The notes under the pieces were generated by a model that was not told the origin of the DNA, searched no databases, and was given only the letters and a program-made list of their open reading frames with translations. Below, piece after piece: positions 14,086 to 23,938 of a stretch of 55,856 nt of DNA (positions within the stretch are counted from its first letter, which is position 1; every line of letters starts with the position of its first letter). Made by a program: the position numbers and the translations under genes. The stretch is from Clostridia bacterium (GTDB taxonomy: Bacteria; Bacillota; Clostridia; Oscillospirales; CAG-272), in contig JAFTOI010000036.1 of the NCBI GenBank assembly GCA_017463865.1, forward strand, positions 1 to 55,856, written 5' to 3'.

Positions 14086-14973
14086 TTAGCTCTGCGGGTC
14101 GATGAGCATCTTCACCAGCTCGGCGTCGGCCCCGAGAACGACCGTCTTGTCGGCGCCCGAGAGCGAAGCCCGCAGGGCGTCGAGGGCCAGCGTGAACTGA
14201 TAGAAGCTCTTTTTATCGTCGGTGTTGAAGGCCTCGGCCAGCATGCGCATGTATTCGGCCTCGCCCTCGGCCTCGAGCTTGGCGGCGGAGGCCTGTGCGT
14301 CCGAAATAATGATGTTGACCTGCTTGTCGACGTCGTTGGTGATGATCGACGCCTCATATTCGCCGTCGGCCTTGTACTTTTCGGCGATCTGGTTGCGCTC
14401 GGAGATCATGCGCGAGTAGACGGCCTGCTCGTTGTCGGCGGGGAGGTCGAGGCGCTTGATCTTGACGTCGACCACACGGATACCGTACTGCGCGGTGACT
14501 TCGGCGACGCTCTGGGTGATGGTATCGTAGATCTTATTGCGCTCGCCGCCGTCCTCCTGATTGATGATGGAGGTCTGGGGCAGCGTGCCCATGACGTTCT
14601 TGAGGGTGGTGTAGGTCGCGGCGTCGAGACGGCGCTCAGCCTCACCGGTGGTGCCGACCGACTTGAAGAAGGTCAGCGGGTCGCTGATCTCCCAGATGAC
14701 GTAGCTGTCGACCGTCATGTTCTTCTTGTCCGAGGTCAGCACCTCGGAGGGATTGATGTCGTAAAGCTGAACGTCGCGGGGAAAGAAGCGGATGGTGTCA
14801 ATGAAGGGGATCTTGAAATGCAGGCCGGCGGTGTCGATGGTATCCACGATCTTGGACAGGCGGACGACGCAGGCGTACTCATTCTCGGCGACGGTGTACA
14901 TTGAGCCGAAGAGGCAAATGACAGTGAGAAGCACGATAAGCGTGACGACGATTTTTACGGTGAGCTTTTTCAT
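14086..14973 (-). CDS. hflC: SPFH/band 7 membrane protein HflC
   Basis: A 295-residue protein with one N-terminal membrane segment (KKLTVKIVVTLIVLLTVICL) and a prohibitin-like SPFH domain (AENEYACVVRLSKIVDTIDTAGLHFKIPF). The C-terminal half is a charged coiled coil with AEGEAEYMRMLAEAFN. HflC and HflK form large cage-like complexes in the membrane that modulate the FtsH protease; no ftsH is in this window. Its ATG overlaps the hflK stop (ATGA), so the two are translationally coupled. Confidence 0.9.
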   Translation of the reverse strand: MKKLTVKIVVTLIVLLTVICLFGSMYTVAENEYACVVRLSKIVDTIDTAGLHFKIPFIDTIRFFPRDVQLYDINPSEVLTSDKKNMTVDSYVIWEISDPLTFFKSVGTTGEAERRLDAATYTTLKNVMGTLPQTSIINQEDGGERNKIYDTITQSVAEVTAQYGIRVVDVKIKRLDLPADNEQAVYSRMISERNQIAEKYKADGEYEASIITNDVDKQVNIIISDAQASAAKLEAEGEAEYMRMLAEAFNTDDKKSFYQFTLALDALRASLSGADKTVVLGADAELVKMLIDPQS

Positions 14974-15977
14974 TTTGCACTTCCCTCCTCTGCGGTAGTA
15001 TTTGCGGCAGTTGTACCGGAAACGAAGCTCTCGAGGGGCAGCAGCTTCTGCGTGCCGCCCTCGGCGGCGTCGACGTAGAGCTTAACGCCGGGCAGGACTT
15101 CGGAAATCATTTCATAGTACATACGCGTACGGGTGATCTCGGGATTGAGGGCGTACTCGGCGTACATGGCCTCGAACATGGCGATCTGCTTGGTCGCCTC
15201 GTTGATGCGGTTGCGCTTGACGTACTCGGCGTTCTGGATCAGCTTGTCAGCCTGTGCCTTGGCCTCGGGCAGCTTGGAGTTCTGGTAGGCGCGGGCCTCA
15301 TTGATGACCGTTTCAGCCAGCTGCATGGCCGTCTCGACGTTCTTGAAGGCTTCGATGACCGATGCGTTCGGGGGCTCGCTGTCCTGGATCTTGACGTCGG
15401 TCAGCATGAGACCGATGTCGTACTGCTCAAGCTCGGCAGTGACCAGCTCCTTGATCTGGGTCTGGATCTCAGTCTTGCCGGTGGTCAGAACCTTGTCGAC
15501 CTCGGTCGAGCCGATGACGTTGCGGATCTGGCTTTGGACAAGGTTGGTGAGGATCCCATCGGGATCAGCCGAAGCGAACAAGTACTTCTCGGGATCGGAG
15601 ATCTTGTACTCGACGAAGAAGTCCACGTTCACGATGTTGAAGTCGCCGGTGATCATCTTCGACTCCGACTCAATGAAATCGCCCGACTCGGGGCGGTAGC
15701 CGAGGTAGATCTTCTGGAAGACATTGACGTCGACCTTATGTACCTGCTGGATCAGCGGGATCTTGAAGTGCATACCGGCGCCGGTGACATTGGTCACCTT
15801 GCCGAAGGTCGTAACGACGGCCTCCTGCTTGTCGTCGACCGTGTACCAGCAGCCGCCGACGATGGCCAGCGCGACGATAAACACGACGACGGTCACCGCC
15901 AGCTTTGCGAGGCGTGCGGGATCGAGCCGCTTCTTTGGGGGCTTTGTTTTGTCCGCATACGGAGGTGTATTGTTCAT
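14970..15977 (-). CDS. hflK: SPFH/band 7 membrane protein HflK
   Basis: A 335-residue partner of HflC. It has a short cytoplasmic N-terminus rich in Pro and Lys, a membrane segment (LAVTVVVFIVALAIVGGCW) and the SPFH domain (VDDKQEAVVTTFGKVTNVTGAGMHFKIPLIQ). A coiled-coil tail follows. It lacks the Gly-rich N-terminal region of proteobacterial HflK. Start chosen at ATG 15975-15977, preceded by AAAGGTGGTAAACAT. It is first in an hflK-hflC-acetyltransferase operon read away from asnB. Confidence 0.88.
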   Translation of the reverse strand: MNNTPPYADKTKPPKKRLDPARLAKLAVTVVVFIVALAIVGGCWYTVDDKQEAVVTTFGKVTNVTGAGMHFKIPLIQQVHKVDVNVFQKIYLGYRPESGDFIESESKMITGDFNIVNVDFFVEYKISDPEKYLFASADPDGILTNLVQSQIRNVIGSTEVDKVLTTGKTEIQTQIKELVTAELEQYDIGLMLTDVKIQDSEPPNASVIEAFKNVETAMQLAETVINEARAYQNSKLPEAKAQADKLIQNAEYVKRNRINEATKQIAMFEAMYAEYALNPEITRTRMYYEMISEVLPGVKLYVDAAEGGTQKLLPLESFVSGTTAANTTAEEGSAK

Positions 15978-16007
15978 ATGTTTACCACCTTTCTGTGTGA
16001 TGGCATA

Positions 16008-16036
16008 ATGATACCACAAATTTCTGCACTTTGCAA
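16008..16036 (-). promoter_or_regulatory. Promoter of hflK
   Basis: On the minus strand TTGCAA (16031-16036) and TATCAT (16008-16013), 17 bases apart. Confidence 0.65.
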
Positions 16037-16131
16037 GAGCGGCCTTGGGCAATTTCAGCCGATGGCGGCCGGGTTTGGCGCAGTTTTGTAAAAAAAGTGC
16101 CATTCCTCTTTATTTTTCCGGCTGAATGTGG

Positions 16132-16186: not shown

Positions 16187-18037
16187 ATGTGTGGTTTTGT
16201 CGGCTTCAGCGGCGTTCGCGACCGCAGACAGCAGATCATTGAACATATGATGGCGCGGATCGTCCACCGCGGCCCGGACATGGGTGACTCTTTTCTGGAC
16301 GACGACATGGCACTGGGCTTCCGGCGGCTGAGCATCATCGACCTATCCCCCGCCGGCTGCCAGCCGATGCAGAACGAAGACGGCTCGGTGGTCATCGTCT
16401 TCAACGGCGAGATCTACAATTTCATGGAGCTGCGCGGGGAGCTGGTCGCGGCGGGACACACCTTCCGCACGAACACCGACACAGAGGTGCTCGTCCACGG
16501 CTACGAGCAGTTCGGCGGCGACGCGCTGGTGCGCCGCCTGCGCGGGATGTTCGCCTTTGTGATCTGGGATCGCCGGGCGAAGCGTCTCTTCGGCGCCCGC
16601 GACCATTTCGGCATCAAGCCCTTTTATTACGGCAAGCTGCCGGGAGGCAATCTGATCTTCGGCTCGGAGATCAAGAGCTTTCTCGAGCATCCCGATTTCG
16701 TCCCCTCCGTCAACCGCGACGCCCTGCGGCCCTATTTGACCTTCCAGTATTCGTCGGGCACCGACACCTTCTTTGAAGGCGTGTACAAGCTGCCACCCGC
16801 GCACAGCTTTGTGTGGGAGCCGGGCGGCGAGATGCGCATCGAGCGGTACTGGGACATCGACTTCGCGGCAAAGAAAGGCACGCTCGACGAGTACGTCGAG
16901 CAGCTGGACAAGTGCATCCACGAGTCGGTGGCGGCACACCGCATCAGCGACGTGCCGGTCGGTTCCTTCCTCTCGGGCGGTGTCGATTCGAGCTACATCA
17001 CGGCGACGCTAATGCCCGATGACACATTCTCGGTCGGCTTCGCCGTCGACCGCTTCAACGAGACCGACGAGGCGGCAGAGCTGTCGAAGCGCCTTGGGGT
17101 GAAGAATTTCAAGAAAATGCTGACCGCCGAGGAGTGCTTTGCCGCCTTCCCGACCATCCAATATCACATGGACGAGCCGCAGTCGAATCCGTCGTCGGTG
17201 CCGCTCTACTTCCTCGCCCAGCTGGCGCGGGAGCATGTCACCGTGGTGCTGTCGGGCGAGGGCGCGGACGAGATTTTCGCCGGCTACGAGTGGTACGACG
17301 AGACGCCCATGATGCGCAAATACAAGAAGCTGCCCAGGTTCATCCGCCGTGCGGCCGGCTCTGTGGCAAAGCGGCTGCCCTACTTCCGTGGGCATGATTT
17401 CCTCATCAAGGCGACCGGCCGCCCCGAGGACTGGTTCATCGGGCAGGCGCTGGTCTTCCCTGAGAAGGAGGCGCTGGCTGTTCTGCGCGATGACTGCCGG
17501 GGCGGCAGGACGCCGGGTGAGGTCTGCGCGCCGATCTATGCGAAGGTCAAGGGCAAGGATGAGGTGACCAAGAAGCAGTACCTCGACCTCTGTCTGTGGC
17601 TGCCGGGCGACATTCTGCTCAAGGCCGACAAGATGAGCATGGCGCACTCGCTCGAGCTGCGCGTGCCCTTCCTCGACCGCGAGGTAATGGCGCTGGCGCA
17701 GACGATTCCGACCAAGTACCGCATCAACCCGAGCGGCACGAAGTACGTCCTGCGCAAGGCAGCCAACCGGACACTGCCCGACGAATGGGCGACCCGCCCG
17801 AAGAAGGGATTCCCGGTGCCGATCCGCTTCTGGCTGCGCGAGGAGCGCTGGTACAAGTTAGTGCGCGAGGCCTTCACCGCCGATTACGCGGGCGAATTCT
17901 TCAACGTGGATGCGCTCTGTGCCCTGCTCGACGATCATTACGCGGGCAAGGCGAACAACGGCCGCAAGATCTGGACGGTCTACACCTTCCTCGTGTGGTA
18001 CAAGTGCTTTTTCGTGGATTTCAAGCGAATGGGGTAA
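16187..18037 (+). CDS. asnB: Glutamine-dependent asparagine synthase (AsnB/AsnH-like)
   Basis: A 616-residue class II amidotransferase. Cys2 of MCGFVGFSG is the glutaminase nucleophile; residues 1-200 form the Ntn domain (IVHRGPDMG, RLSIIDLSP and NGEIYNF are its usual motifs). The synthetase domain carries the PP-loop SFLSGGVDSSYI and GEGADEIFAGYEW. It normally makes asparagine from aspartate, glutamine and ATP. In lactococci a homologue, AsnH, instead amidates D-Asp in peptidoglycan. The next genes here encode a D-Asp ligase-like enzyme and a racemase, so that role is possible. Start fixed by the required Met-Cys; GGAG lies 11 bases upstream. Confidence 0.9.
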   Translation: MCGFVGFSGVRDRRQQIIEHMMARIVHRGPDMGDSFLDDDMALGFRRLSIIDLSPAGCQPMQNEDGSVVIVFNGEIYNFMELRGELVAAGHTFRTNTDTEVLVHGYEQFGGDALVRRLRGMFAFVIWDRRAKRLFGARDHFGIKPFYYGKLPGGNLIFGSEIKSFLEHPDFVPSVNRDALRPYLTFQYSSGTDTFFEGVYKLPPAHSFVWEPGGEMRIERYWDIDFAAKKGTLDEYVEQLDKCIHESVAAHRISDVPVGSFLSGGVDSSYITATLMPDDTFSVGFAVDRFNETDEAAELSKRLGVKNFKKMLTAEECFAAFPTIQYHMDEPQSNPSSVPLYFLAQLAREHVTVVLSGEGADEIFAGYEWYDETPMMRKYKKLPRFIRRAAGSVAKRLPYFRGHDFLIKATGRPEDWFIGQALVFPEKEALAVLRDDCRGGRTPGEVCAPIYAKVKGKDEVTKKQYLDLCLWLPGDILLKADKMSMAHSLELRVPFLDREVMALAQTIPTKYRINPSGTKYVLRKAANRTLPDEWATRPKKGFPVPIRFWLREERWYKLVREAFTADYAGEFFNVDALCALLDDHYAGKANNGRKIWTVYTFLVWYKCFFVDFKRMG

Positions 18038-18041
18038 GACC

Positions 18042-18098
18042 TTGGGGCGCCGCCCCAAACCCCGCTTAAGGGACTTTTTCGAGAAAAAGTCCCTTAAG
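18042..18098 (+). repeat. Double-hairpin intergenic element
   Basis: A GC hairpin (TTGGGGC 18042-18048 with GCCCCAA 18052-18058) is followed by a perfect 15-bp stem (18065-18079 with 18084-18098) closed by CGAG. No T-run follows, so it is not a classical terminator. Similar elements are, from memory, frequent between genes in Ruminococcaceae. It sits between asnB and the ATP-grasp ligase. Confidence 0.7.
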
Positions 18099-18171
18099 AA
18101 TCTTCAAAAAGCTTTCCAACTTGTGTCTGGATTTTGGTTTGTGTAAATATGATAGAGAAAAGGACATAGAT

Positions 18172-19395
18172 ATGAAGGACATCAATCTCATTCCCGTCCT
18201 GCTCGGGGCGGATCTCAACTGTTATTCGCTGGCCCGCGCCTTTTACGAGGCGGCCGGTGTCAAGGCGCAGGCTTTCGGGCGCTATCCGCTGGGGCAGACG
18301 CAATATTCGCGTTTCCTCAACTTCACGGCGGTGCCGAATCTGGATAATCCCGACATTATGGTGCAGGTGCTGATCGAGTTCGCGCAGAAGCATCCCGACG
18401 AGCCGCTGGTCGCGATGGGCTGCACCGACGATTATGCGTCACTGCTCATCTCTTGCAAGGCCCAGCTCGAGCCTTACTACATCATCCCCTATATCGACGC
18501 GCCCCTGCGCGACCGGCTGGTCAGCAAGGCTGATTTCTACGCGCTCTGCGATGAGTATGACATTCCCTACCCCAAGACGAAGGTATTCACCGCCGATTTC
18601 TCGCCGGCGTGGCTCCAGCCCGAGGCGCTGGGCTTTGGCTATCCGCTGATCGTCAAGCCGTCGTCGAGTATTGAGTATTGGAAGCATCCCTTTGACGGCA
18701 TGCAGAAGGTTTATGTGGCCGAGTCGCCCGAGCGCGCCGAAGCCATCATCCGCGAGATCTACGCCTCGGGCTACACCGAGCGGATGATCGTACAGGACAT
18801 GATCCCGGGTGAGGACTCCTACATGCATGTGCTGACCGCCTATGCAGATAAGGACAGCAAGGTAAAGATGACCTGTCTCGGCCATGTCATGCTCGAGGAG
18901 CACACCCCGAAAGGACGCGGCAACCACGCCGCCATCATGATCGAGCAGAACAAGGCGCTGACCGACCGCGTCCGCGCCCTGCTGGAGGATCTGGGCTACC
19001 GCGGCTTTGCGAATTTTGACATCAAGTACGACGAGCGCGACGGCTCGCTGCGCTTCTTCGAGATCAATCTGCGCCAGGGGCGCAGCAACCACTACATCAC
19101 CGCGTCGGGGATGAACATCGCGGAGCTGGTTATCCGCGACTACTTCACCGACGAGCCGCTGAAGAATATTGACTGCGCGAACGAGCATCTCTGGCACTGC
19201 GTGCCGTGGGGTGTAGTCAAGCGCTATGTCAAGGACGATGCTGTCCGTGCGAAGGCGGCGGCTCTGCGCCGCGCCGGCAAGTCGACCTCGGCGCTCTGGT
19301 GCGCGGCCGATCTGCGGGGCAATCCAAAGCGCTTCGCGTGGGTGGTGCGCCATCTGCTCGGCCACTACGCGAAGTACAAAAAATACTGCAAATAA
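18172..19395 (+). CDS. ATP-grasp ligase, probable D-aspartate ligase for the peptidoglycan cross-bridge
   Basis: A 407-residue ATP-grasp enzyme. The N-terminus (IPVLLGADLNCYSLARAFYE) closely recalls Aslfm, the Enterococcus faecium D-aspartate ligase, which joins the beta-carboxyl of D-Asp to the epsilon-amine of the stem-peptide lysine. The ATP-grasp core includes PLIVKPSSSIEYW and the Mg-binding FEINLRQGRSNHY near residues 300-312. The next gene is an aspartate/glutamate racemase four bases away, then murE, and asnB lies upstream, as expected for a D-Asp/D-iso-Asn bridge pathway. Start follows AAAAGGACATAGAT. Another amino-acid ligase activity cannot be excluded. Confidence 0.75.
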   Translation: MKDINLIPVLLGADLNCYSLARAFYEAAGVKAQAFGRYPLGQTQYSRFLNFTAVPNLDNPDIMVQVLIEFAQKHPDEPLVAMGCTDDYASLLISCKAQLEPYYIIPYIDAPLRDRLVSKADFYALCDEYDIPYPKTKVFTADFSPAWLQPEALGFGYPLIVKPSSSIEYWKHPFDGMQKVYVAESPERAEAIIREIYASGYTERMIVQDMIPGEDSYMHVLTAYADKDSKVKMTCLGHVMLEEHTPKGRGNHAAIMIEQNKALTDRVRALLEDLGYRGFANFDIKYDERDGSLRFFEINLRQGRSNHYITASGMNIAELVIRDYFTDEPLKNIDCANEHLWHCVPWGVVKRYVKDDAVRAKAAALRRAGKSTSALWCAADLRGNPKRFAWVVRHLLGHYAKYKKYCK

Positions 19396-19399
19396 GGAG

Positions 19400-20143
19400 G
19401 TGGCGGCTACGGCTGCGACCAAGAAATTAGGGATCCTCGGGGGCCTGGGGCCGATGTCATCGGTCTATTTCTACGAAATGCTGACCCGACACACCGACGC
19501 CCGCTGCGACCAGGATCACATCGACCTTGTGCTCTCGAGCGGCGCGACAACACCCGACCGCACCGCCTTCATCCTCGGGCAGTCGCCCGACTCTCCCCTG
19601 CCCCGCATGGTGGCCGACGCCGAGTCGCTGATCGCCGCCGGGGCTGAGCTGATCGCCATCCCCTGCAACACGGCGCACTACTTCTATGACGCACTGGCCG
19701 AGTCGATCACCGTGCCGGTGATCAACATCCTCTACGAGACGGTCACGACGCTGGCCGACCTCGGGGTGCGCAAGATCGGCGTCCTGGCGACGGCCGGTAC
19801 CGTCGCGTCGGGGGCATACCAGCACATGTGTCGGCGGGTCGGCCTCGACTGCGCTGTGCCCGACATTGACGGGCAGGCGGCGATCCAGCGCATCATCTAT
19901 GACGACATCAAGCAGGGCAAACGCCCCGACATGGCGGCCTTCGCCGACGTGGCGGCCCGTCTGCTCGACGCCGGCTGTGAGCGGCTGGTGCTGGGCTGCA
20001 CCGAGCTGTCGCTGCTGAAGCGCGACGAGGGCCTTTCCGCTCCCTACTTCGACTCGCTTGAGGCGCTGGCCTACCGCTCGATCCTCGCCTGCGGCAAGCG
20101 GCCGGTGGGCTTCGATGACGACTTTCCGGAGGTGAACGCATGA
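19400..20143 (+). CDS. Aspartate/glutamate racemase family protein
   Basis: A PLP-independent racemase of about 247 residues. Both catalytic cysteines are present, in AIPCNTAHYFYDAL and LVLGCTELSLL, and the GILGGLGPMSS start is typical of aspartate racemase. It would supply D-Asp to the ligase encoded just upstream. The start is odd. The GTG at 19400 lies inside the ribosome binding site AAGGAGGTG with no spacer, while the codon at ideal spacing is ACG (19409-19411). The first in-frame ATG is too late because it would remove the conserved GGLGP motif. The stop overlaps the murE start by four bases. Confidence 0.82.
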   Translation: MAATAATKKLGILGGLGPMSSVYFYEMLTRHTDARCDQDHIDLVLSSGATTPDRTAFILGQSPDSPLPRMVADAESLIAAGAELIAIPCNTAHYFYDALAESITVPVINILYETVTTLADLGVRKIGVLATAGTVASGAYQHMCRRVGLDCAVPDIDGQAAIQRIIYDDIKQGKRPDMAAFADVAARLLDAGCERLVLGCTELSLLKRDEGLSAPYFDSLEALAYRSILACGKRPVGFDDDFPEVNA

Positions 20144-21642
20144 TTACCCTGTCCGACCTTCTCGCCCCCCTCTCGCCCGACTGGCTGGCCGAGCCCCTCT
20201 CGCTGACCGACGAGGTGCTGGCCCGCCCCATCGAGCTGCTGTCCACCGACACCCGCAAGCTGGTGGGGGATGATTCGCTCTTTGTCTGCATCAAGGGGGC
20301 CGTCTTCGACGGCCATGCCTACGCGCGCCGCGCCTATGATGCCGGCTGCCGCGTCTTTGTGGCCGAGGCTGTGCTCGATCTGCCCCCCGACGCCATTGTC
20401 ATCCGCGTCACCGACAGCCGCGTGGCGCTGGCCCGCATGTCGGCGGCTTTCTACCGCTATCCCGCCCGCGAGCTGACCGTCATCGGCATCACAGGCACCA
20501 AGGGCAAGACCACCACCGCCCTGCTCATCCGCCACATTCTCGAGCAAAACGGCATCTCTGCCGGCTACATCGGCTCGAACGGCGTCCAGTTTGCCGGGAA
20601 ATTCTATCCCACCGCCAACACCACGCCCGAGAGCTGTGACCTGCACGCCTATCTGCGCCAGATGGCCGACGCGGGGGTGAAGTATGTCGCCCTCGAGGTC
20701 TCGTCGCAGGCGCTCTACCTCAACCGCGTGCACGGACTCGATTTTCCCATCTCGATCTTCACCAACCTCTCCCCCGACCACATCGGCGGCGTCGAGCACC
20801 CCACCTTCGAGCACTACTGCGCCTGCAAACGCGCCCTCTTCGCCGACCACAGCACCGGATGTGTCATCGCCAATCTGGATGATCCCGCCACGCCCGGTAT
20901 GATTGCTGGCTGTGACCGCATTGTCGGCGTCTCAGTCGAGGGCGAAGCTGATCTCGCGGCACGGGACATCGCCCTTTTCCGCTGGGGCAGTCGGCTCGGG
21001 GTCGAGTTCGTCTGCCGTCATTGCGGCAAGGAAGCAGCCTTTGCCCTTCCCCTGCCCGGCGAATACAACGTCCACAACGCCCTCTGCGCGGCGGCAGTCG
21101 GCCTCGAAGCAGGCCTCACCCTGCCCCAGATCGCGGCGGCGATGGCAACTGTCGCCATCAAAGGCCGCTGCGAGGCCGTCGAGGTACTGTCCGACGTGAC
21201 CTTCCTCATCGACTACGCCCACAACGGCGTCAGCCTGCGGGCGGCGCTCGAGACACTACGCTGCTATGATCCCGCGCGGCTAATCTGCCTCTTCGGCTCG
21301 GTCGGCGGGCGCACGCAGCTGCGCCGCCCCGAGCTGGGCGCGGTCGCGAACGAGCTGTGCGACCTGGCGATCCTGACCTCGGATAACCCCGATTTCGAGG
21401 ATCCCGAGGCCGTCATCGCCGACATCGCGGCGGCCTTCACCCCCGACGGCTGCCCCTACCTGATCCAGCCCGACCGCGCCGAGGCCATCCGCCTCGCCGT
21501 CAGCCAGGCCAGCCCGGGCGACATCGTCCTGTTGGCCGGCAAGGGGCACGAGGATTATCAGCTGATCCGCGGCGAAAAGGTGCCGTTTGACGAGCGCGCA
21601 GTCCTCCACGAATGTGCAGCGCGCCTGCGTACACGGCTGTGA
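20140..21642 (+). CDS. murE: Mur ligase MurE, UDP-MurNAc-tripeptide synthetase with lysine-type motifs
   Basis: A 500-residue Mur ligase: N-terminal UDP-binding domain (STDTRKLVGDDSLFV), P-loop VIGITGTKGKTTTA, ALEVSSQAL, carbamylated-Lys region YCACKRALF, and C-terminal domain with KGRCEAVEV and FLIDYAHN. It adds the third amino acid to UDP-MurNAc-Ala-Glu. Diaminopimelate-adding enzymes carry DNPR at the specificity loop; here the loop reads DNPDFEDP. The segment DHIGGVEHPTFEHY also fits lysine-adding enzymes rather than the usual DHLDYHGTxxxY. The gene overlaps the racemase stop (ATGA) and ends the proposed cross-bridge operon. Whether it is the cell's only MurE is unknown. Confidence 0.88.
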   Translation: MITLSDLLAPLSPDWLAEPLSLTDEVLARPIELLSTDTRKLVGDDSLFVCIKGAVFDGHAYARRAYDAGCRVFVAEAVLDLPPDAIVIRVTDSRVALARMSAAFYRYPARELTVIGITGTKGKTTTALLIRHILEQNGISAGYIGSNGVQFAGKFYPTANTTPESCDLHAYLRQMADAGVKYVALEVSSQALYLNRVHGLDFPISIFTNLSPDHIGGVEHPTFEHYCACKRALFADHSTGCVIANLDDPATPGMIAGCDRIVGVSVEGEADLAARDIALFRWGSRLGVEFVCRHCGKEAAFALPLPGEYNVHNALCAAAVGLEAGLTLPQIAAAMATVAIKGRCEAVEVLSDVTFLIDYAHNGVSLRAALETLRCYDPARLICLFGSVGGRTQLRRPELGAVANELCDLAILTSDNPDFEDPEAVIADIAAAFTPDGCPYLIQPDRAEAIRLAVSQASPGDIVLLAGKGHEDYQLIRGEKVPFDERAVLHECAARLRTRL

Positions 21643-22132: not shown

Positions 22133-23938
22133 ATGGCAAAAAGCAGACTGATCGGCGACTATCCCGTCATCGGCATCCGTCCGACCATCGACGGTCGGCG
22201 CGGCGCGCTGAAGGTGCGCGAGTCGCTGGAAGACCAAACCATGAACATGGCCCGCGCGGCCGCCAAGCTGTTCACCGAAAATCTTCGCTACTCCAACGGC
22301 GAGCCGGTCAAGGTAGTCATCGCCGATACGACTATCGGCCGCGTGGCCGAAAGCGCGGCCTGCGCCGACAAATTCAAGAAGGCCGGCGTTGACATCACGC
22401 TGACCGTCACCCCCTGCTGGTGCTACGGCTCCGAGACGATGGACATGGATCCGAACACCATCAAGGCCGTCTGGGGCTTCAACGGCACCGAGCGTCCCGG
22501 CGCGGTCTACCTCGCGTCGGTGCTGGCCTCCCACGCACAGAAGGGCCTGCCGGCCTTCGGCATCTACGGCCATGACGTGCAGGACATGGACGACACCTCC
22601 ATTCCGGCTGACGTCGAGGAAAAGCTGCTCCGCTTCGGCCGCGCGGCTGTCGCCGCGGCCACCATGCGCGGCAAGTCCTATCTGCAGATCGGCTCGATCT
22701 GCATGGGCATCGGCGGCTCGATCATCGACTCGAAGTTCCTTGAGGAGTATTTCGGCATGCGCGTCGAGTCGGTCGACGAGGTTGAGATCATCCGCCGCAT
22801 GACCGAGGGCATCTACGACGAGGCCGAGTACCAACGCGCGCTGGCCTGGACGAAGGCCAAATGCCGCGAGGGCTTCGACAAGAACCCGGCTGAGCTGCAG
22901 AAATCCCGCGCGGTCAAGGACGAGCAGTGGGAGTTCGTGGTCAAGATGATGGTCATCATCAAGGATCTGATGAACGGCAACCCCAACCTGCCCGAGGCCC
23001 GTGAGGAGGAGATGGTCGGCCACAACGCCATCGCCGCCGGCTTCCAGGGTCAGCGTCAGTGGACCGACTTCTACCCCAACGCCGACTTTGCCGAGGCGCT
23101 GCTCAACACCTCCTTCGACTGGTCGGGCGTGCGTGAACCGTACATCCTCGCCACCGAGAACGACGTCCTCAACGGCATGGGCATGCTCTTCATGAAGCTG
23201 CTCACCAACCGTGCCCAGATCTTCGCCGATGTCCGCACCTACTGGAGCCCCGAGGCTGTCAAGCGCGCCACCGGCGGCTACGAAATCGAGGGCAAGGCCG
23301 CCGAGGCCGGCGGCTTCATCCACCTCATCAACTCGGGCGCGGCCTGCCTTGACGCCTGCGGCGCGGTCACAGATGCGGACGGCAACGCCGTGATGAAGCA
23401 ATGGTTCGAGATGACCGATGCTGACTGCGACAAGATCCTCGCCAAGACCGAATGGGCACCGGCCGACCTCGGCTATTTCCGTGGCGGCGGCTACTCCTCC
23501 CGCTTCGTGACCGAGGCAGAGATGCCGGTCACCATGATCCGCCTCAACCTCGTCGACGGTCTCGGCCCGATGCTGCAGATTGCCGAGGGCTGGACGGTCA
23601 AGCTGCCCGCAGCCGTCACTGACACCCTCTGGAAGCGCACAGACTACACCTGGCCCTGCACCTGGTTTGCCCCTCGCACGACCGGCCAGGGCGCCTTCAA
23701 GACGGCCTACGACGTCATGAACAACTGGGGTGCCAACCACGGCGCGATCAGCTACGGCCACATCGGCGCCGATCTGATCACCCTCTGCTCGATGCTCCGC
23801 ATTCCGGTCGCGATGCACAACGTGCCGGAGGAAAAGATCTTCCGCCCGGCCGTCTGGAACGCCTTCGGCATGGACAAGGAGGGCGCCGACTATCGTGCCT
23901 GCGCCACCTACGGCCCGCAGTTCAAGAAAACGAGATAA
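22133..23938 (+). CDS. fucI: L-fucose isomerase
   Basis: FucI (EC 5.3.1.25) converts L-fucose to L-fuculose in the cytoplasm, and often D-arabinose to D-ribulose. The 601 residues align end to end with the E. coli enzyme: [70 protein letters not shown], and metal-site regions [10 protein letters not shown] and TENDVLNGM. No fucose kinase, aldolase or transporter is nearby, so the rest of the pathway must be elsewhere. Start follows CAGGAGGCATCCCC. Fucose use fits a gut habitat with host or plant glycans. Confidence 0.96.

Follow-up and report, generated by a model that had tools for sequence, protein, structure and literature searches.

The closest described systems to the locus considered here are the D-aspartate/D-asparagine bridge system AslA-RacD-AsnH of Lactococcus lactis and lactobacilli and Aslfm of Enterococcus faecium. 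A two-wall scheme resembling the one proposed below was reportedly described by Linnett and Tipper for Bacillus (Lysinibacillus) sphaericus, with Lys-D-Asp in the vegetative wall and diaminopimelate (DAP) in the spore cortex; our literature search did not find that work. In L. lactis, aslA and racD are placed in one operon and AsnH amidates the bridge (PMC4155827). We analyzed a stretch of 55,856 nucleotides, here called the window (contig JAFTOI010000036.1 of assembly GCA_017463865.1), from a Clostridia bacterium of the Oscillospirales family CAG-272. It contains a cassette of four genes: asnB, an ATP-grasp ligase gene, an aspartate/glutamate racemase gene and murE. The cassette resembles AslA-type systems in grouping such a ligase, an aspartate-type racemase and an asparagine synthetase-like gene, with a ligase 33-38% identical to three lactobacillar relatives; it differs in containing a second, non-arginine murE, the relatives having an arginine-type MurE as well. 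We consider it fairly probable that the cassette makes the precursor of the vegetative wall, with a lysine or ornithine stem built by this MurE (MurE2) and a D-aspartate (D-Asp) bridge, and that a DAP-type MurE serves the spore. A preliminary description of the window had proposed a notable D-Asp module of four genes including an ordinary murE; the D-Asp module was upheld, but this murE is not the ordinary one, the module is not isolated and asnB may be transcribed apart from the other three genes.

Family scans placed the ligase below every NCBIfam and Pfam cut-off, and no curated model names it. With the ligase alone as query, a PDB sequence search gave no match at E 0.1; the ligase profile matched only carbamoyl-phosphate synthetase and VanA (E 1e-4 to 2e-3). 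The predicted structure has the ATP-grasp fold (mean predicted local distance difference test score, 93.6), and its top Foldseek matches include PylC, one entry of which contains L-lysine-Ne-D-ornithine, that is, a D-amino acid on the lysine side chain; however, the identity to PylC is only 14-15%, and PylC belongs to the pyrrolysine pathway. Proteins of lactobacilli, Lysinibacillus and Ureibacillus were 33-46% identical to the ligase and mostly encoded beside a racemase or asnB. A search of plasmid records showed that the L. crispatus relative (38%) has asnB immediately upstream, that the L. curvatus relative (37%) has a racemase gene immediately upstream, and that neither adjoins the L. fermentum relative (33%).

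We confirmed 559 ligase relatives in named genomes and kept the best 80 as loci. Among these, the ligases of Lysinibacillus, Ureibacillus, Paenisporosarcina and Metalysinibacillus were 45-46% identical to that of the window and were followed by a racemase, with no murE within the stretch covered; in Metalysinibacillus, asnB adjoins the ligase. Most of the Lysinibacillus walls examined are of the A4alpha Lys-Asp type (PMC10434897), and the nearest ligases with a known wall type are the Lys-Asp ones. By family and context, the protein is thus a predicted D-Asp bridge ligase, as the preliminary description had suggested; it grouped with relatives of D-Asp bridge ligases and not with an unrelated ATP-grasp family, the likeness running through lactobacillar and other Bacilli proteins rather than through Aslfm or AslA themselves. 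A D-Asp module is well supported, D-Asp being the predicted amino acid.

The window MurE passed TIGR01085 (396.3 bits; cut-off, 257.3) and NF001126, but its motif is DNPD, lacking the arginine of the DNPR motif of DAP-type MurE. The residue aligned with E. coli Arg416 was Asp (48), Gly (9), Asn (5) or Ala (1), and never arginine, in the 63 MurE2 rows, whereas the equivalents of Arg389, Asn414 and Gly464 were retained in all 12 MurE2 proteins sampled (numbered as in the E. coli MurE crystal structure). MurE2 resembles the canonical E. coli enzyme in fold, in these three residues and in the MurE models that it passes, and differs from it in the Asp at the Arg416 place, in forming a separate clade and in having its own cassette. 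The lysine-type enzyme is not its closest solved relative: among solved structures, the S. aureus lysine MurE 4c12 ranked only ninth for the window MurE (215.2 bits versus 271.9 for the best).

Profiles, motifs and trees served to assign the MurE types; percent identity with the MurE of the window was dropped as a type label, because an arginine-type MurE (in genome G057) reaches 45%. In a tree of 114 sequences, for which 33 of the 66 MurE2 rows were used, 31 of the 33 rows labelled MurE2 formed one clade (support, 98), and proteins with an AEDPG motif (MurE3) formed a separate one. L116 and L197, first sorted as MurE2, fell among the latter and were set aside together with L220, which had likewise first been sorted as MurE2. 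The arginine-type MurEs were not a single clade. A second tree again recovered the MurE2 clade (28 rows; support, 100/99). Most relatives with the cassette have two MurEs, the cassette copy reading DNPD, DNPN or DNPG and the other reading DNPR, DNSR or similar, usually with a GCGGDRD motif. The clade, the missing Arg416 equivalent and this second enzyme speak against the ordinary murE originally assumed.

Two MurEs are also found in Lysinibacillus antri, one of the lysine type, with S. aureus 4c12 as by far its best match (451.7 bits versus 301.4 for the next), and one with a DNPRSED motif. Together with its ligase-racemase pair, they recall the two-wall scheme reported for B. sphaericus; however, the lysine-type MurE of L. 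antri belongs to the S. aureus lineage, and its gene does not adjoin that of the ligase. In Clostridia, by contrast, the ligase is adjoined by MurE2 or MurE3, which belong to other lineages than the S. aureus type.

Similar gene neighborhoods recur among the best 80 loci. The racemase lies next to the ligase in 53 of the 69 loci with more than 3.2 kb downstream (54 counting L199, with overlapping genes), and a murE-like gene lies within 2.5 kb downstream in 56 of them (57 counting L139, also with overlapping genes); asnB is upstream in 36 of the 68 loci with more than 2.5 kb upstream. The grouping is more than chance. The same or a similar cassette occurs in Oscillospiraceae, Lachnospiraceae and Peptostreptococcaceae, and the module is not isolated. 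In a tree of 45 ligases, all 16 sampled ligases encoded beside MurE2 fell into one clade of 22 (the remaining six being ungrouped), and 10 of the 12 encoded beside MurE3 fell into another; the ligase lineages follow the type of the adjoining MurE. No description of the MurE2-ligase pairing was found in our literature search. Ligases of Ruthenibacterium, Subdoligranulum and Slackia (L123, L127, L135, L025, L182 and L197) form one clade without an adjoining MurE2 and perhaps work on another stem. In Drancourtella, Claveliimonas and Mordavella (L164, L177 and L178), one cluster contains two kinds of murE: a MurE3-type gene comes after the ligase-racemase pair, and an arginine-type gene follows it immediately. 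The L199 contig, which bears asnB, ligase and racemase genes, is labelled Patescibacteria, reflecting transfer or a binning error.

Our survey of the window's family covered 185 draft genomes, with a completeness of at least 90% in all but that of the window itself (G000; 67%). The latter, in which SpoIVA and SpoVA but no arginine-type MurE were found, and G146, in which SpoIVA but no MurE was found, were set aside, leaving 183; all four congeners of the window's genome carry an arginine-type MurE. Profile searches, in which up to eight candidates per genome were scored for each type, detected MurE2 in 111 genomes (107 with a row of at least 500 bits and four with partial or weaker ones). Arginine-type MurE was called by profile search and by individual reading of 12 doubtful genomes. 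It was present in 176 genomes, by a listed profile row in 149, by individual reading in nine and by the best E value only in 18; these 18 include four MurE2 genomes (G106, G107, G219 and G224) with E values of 1e-149 to 1e-151, the best arginine-profile E value for a genome with MurE2 alone being 6e-140. Copies that are split or partial (G112, G121, G102 and G164) or contain an internal stop (G131 and G176) were counted as present. The arginine-type copy of G083 has the DNPR motif and lies outside the MurE2 clade, yet it scored 533 bits on the MurE2 profile.

No arginine-type MurE was found in seven of the 183 genomes (G082, G085, G023, G132, G028, G009 and G166), which belong to four genera. 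In six of them, each at least 90% complete, MurE2 was the only MurE found. SpoIVA was absent from 19 of the 185 genomes, among them all seven, and SpoVA was missing in exactly those seven of the 30 genomes searched for it (the 19 without SpoIVA and 11 others). Each of the 176 genomes with an arginine-type MurE has a marker, SpoIVA in 164 and SpoVA only in 12. SpoIVA alone was rejected as a sporulation marker, since 12 of the 19 genomes lacking it have SpoVA. Genera g20 and g57 contain both states; losses were tallied per genus rather than on a species tree, and the Fisher value of the survey (8e-13) treats genomes as independent, which related genomes are not. These results suggest that only spore formers retain the ordinary DAP-type enzyme. 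Because the arginine-type MurE is missing exactly where the markers are missing, the most economical interpretation assigns MurE2 or MurE3 to growth and the DAP-type enzyme to the spore. The reversed split, with MurE2 for spores, was ruled out by the six marker-less genomes in which MurE2 is the only MurE.

In the proposed pathway, MurE2 would add a diamino acid lacking the second carboxylate of DAP as the third stem residue, most likely lysine and possibly ornithine. The racemase would supply D-Asp, which the ligase would couple to the amino group in the side chain of this third residue to form the cross-bridge, and the AsnB protein would probably amidate the bridge. The arginine-type (DAP-type) enzyme, whose gene lies elsewhere, would be retained for the spore wall. 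With some reserve, we also favor a wider proposition: that a large group of gut Clostridia builds the growing cell and the spore from two different stem peptides with two dedicated MurEs, that the DAP-type MurE is in effect a sporulation gene, lost with sporulation in four genera, and that a D-Asp ligase is paired with MurE2 and MurE3, two separate non-arginine lineages.

The place of asnB in this pathway is the part most open to another explanation. Its product passed TIGR01536 (516.5 bits; cut-off, 267.1) and is 47% identical to that of the asnB gene immediately upstream of the L. crispatus ligase. Two hairpins lie at 18044-18098, in the gap of 134 bases between the end of asnB and the start of the ligase gene, and compensating changes preserve the second across four genomes of the genus. 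This second hairpin (RNA fold z, -5.03) is common to the four, the window's included, and five pairs of its main stem are changed on both sides in the consensus. Since this conserved hairpin stands between asnB and the other three genes, asnB may form a separate or attenuated transcript; the ligase, racemase and murE genes are tightly coupled. The AsnB protein might instead amidate a DAP stem or make asparagine, outside the bridge pathway. PMC4155827 gives the L. plantarum asnB1 gene, beside murE, as a precedent for DAP amidation, and the hairpin as well as the 32 of 68 loci lacking an upstream asnB would fit such a role. We nevertheless regard it as rather doubtful, given that asnB adjoins the ligase in L. 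crispatus and Metalysinibacillus, in cassettes without murE; the AsnB protein of the window probably amidates the bridge.

Several observations weigh against the division of labor between the two MurEs. The lysine-type MurE of Lysinibacillus has a DDPR motif, so the arginine alone is not decisive for the substrate. G002 and G007 carry their arginine-type murE within an ordinary division and wall cluster and not in a spore-only locus; it lies after a gene for a SpoVD-like transpeptidase (TIGR02214, 531-535 bits, under the cut-off of 688) and before murF or a murF-like gene. A lone arginine-type MurE accompanies ligase, racemase and asnB in two Ruthenibacterium genomes (L123 and L127), in L135 and in G057; SpoVA was searched for in three of these four and was present in each. 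Four of the 85 ligase genomes of the family (G091, G100, G175 and G177) likewise have a single MurE of the arginine type. The only MurE found in G082 is MurE3-like, without a ligase, and 46 of the 111 MurE2 genomes gave no ligase match, among them G009 and G166, which lack the spore genes; some of the MurE2 genes concerned are at contig ends. Our search of the literature on the wall chemistry of cassette-bearing Clostridia found nothing to the point, and the Romboutsia ilealis genome paper (PMC5598433) contained no peptidoglycan term.

The single-MurE genomes of Ruthenibacterium, L135 and G057, the cluster in G002 and G007 and the fact that NF001126 is named as a DAP ligase would all suit a plain D-Asp module, in which MurE2 is a duplicate with DAP as its substrate, D-Asp is placed on DAP stems and both MurEs serve one wall. 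We consider this unlikely: the Arg416 place is altered in every MurE2 row, and a redundant duplicate would leave the loss of the arginine-type enzyme only alongside the sporulation markers unexplained.

The racemase bears on the identity of the bridge itself. It passed TIGR00035 (192 bits; cut-off, 93.1), its best solved relative is aspartate racemase 1jfl, and it has both catalytic cysteines described previously, in the motifs PCNTAH and GCTE. A further point against D-Asp is that it also exceeded the cut-off of NF052483, a model for cysteate racemase (198.5 versus 190 bits), as did the racemases of Subdoligranulum, G057, G002 and G054. D-Glu bridges are known from other Gram-positive bacteria, and the same stem could thus bear D-Glu or D-cysteate. 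However, NF052483 separates poorly, because the L. curvatus racemase encoded beside its ligase scored 185, just under the cut-off, and among ligases whose wall type is known the nearest come from Lys-Asp walls; a bridge of another D-amino acid is therefore decidedly improbable. That the cassette makes a muropeptide-like or secreted side product, with the whole wall left to the arginine-type MurE, is very improbable: the cassette parts are separable, because so many MurE2 genomes gave no ligase match, but in six genomes no other MurE was found, and there MurE2 must serve the wall.

If the two-wall scheme holds, it bears on a question described as unanswered in a review (PMC4015370), namely why species use lysine or DAP. 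Our pattern suggests a testable answer: spores may need DAP, leaving the growing wall free to change. The vegetative walls of many gut Clostridia, assumed to be cross-linked directly through DAP, may then be poor in DAP and bridged by D-Asp, and DAP sensors such as NOD1 and wall-degrading enzymes would perceive them differently. A DNP[DGN] MurE encoded beside an AslA-like ligase could serve as a genomic marker for predicting wall type.

The coordinates are collected in the table below. The four reading frames are intact, and the order, strand and tight spacing of the last three genes are as given in the preliminary description, with four bases between the ligase and racemase genes and an overlap of four bases between the racemase gene and murE2.

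Table. Features of the cassette (window positions) and short open reading frames at three related loci (positions at each locus)
Feature	Position	Strand	Size	Remarks
asnB, candidate amidase of the D-Asp bridge	16187-18037	+	616 amino acids	TIGR01536; Cys2 and SGGVDSS motif (sequence reading)
Hairpin, terminator- or attenuator-like	18065-18098	+		Arms 18065-18080 and 18083-18098; perfect 16-bp stem
ATP-grasp ligase, AslA/Aslfm-like candidate D-Asp bridge ligase	18172-19395	+	407 amino acids	Relatives, context, predicted fold
Aspartate/glutamate racemase family protein	19400-20143	+	247 amino acids	GTG start; TIGR00035; 1jfl relative
murE2, UDP-MurNAc-tripeptide synthetase, non-arginine type	20140-21642	+	500 amino acids	TIGR01085; MurE2 clade; DNPD
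Asp418 codon of MurE2	21391-21393	+		Aligned with E. coli MurE Arg416 (crystal numbering)
Short open reading frame upstream of racemase-murE2, L102	4787-5143			No ligase match; resembles the start of the ligase alone
Short open reading frame upstream of racemase-murE2, L108	10430-10822			No ligase match
Short open reading frame upstream of racemase-murE2, L101	6578-6985			No ligase match

Such short open reading frames, of 118-135 amino acids, precede the racemase gene in G005, G027 and G035; by eye, that of G027 clearly resembles the start of the ligase and the other two only vaguely, as do those at L108 and L101. Outside the cassette, an HflK/HflC-like pair (14086-16103, minus strand) lies upstream and a fucose isomerase-like gene (22133-23938, plus strand) downstream; both were named by eye, with no apparent link to the wall.

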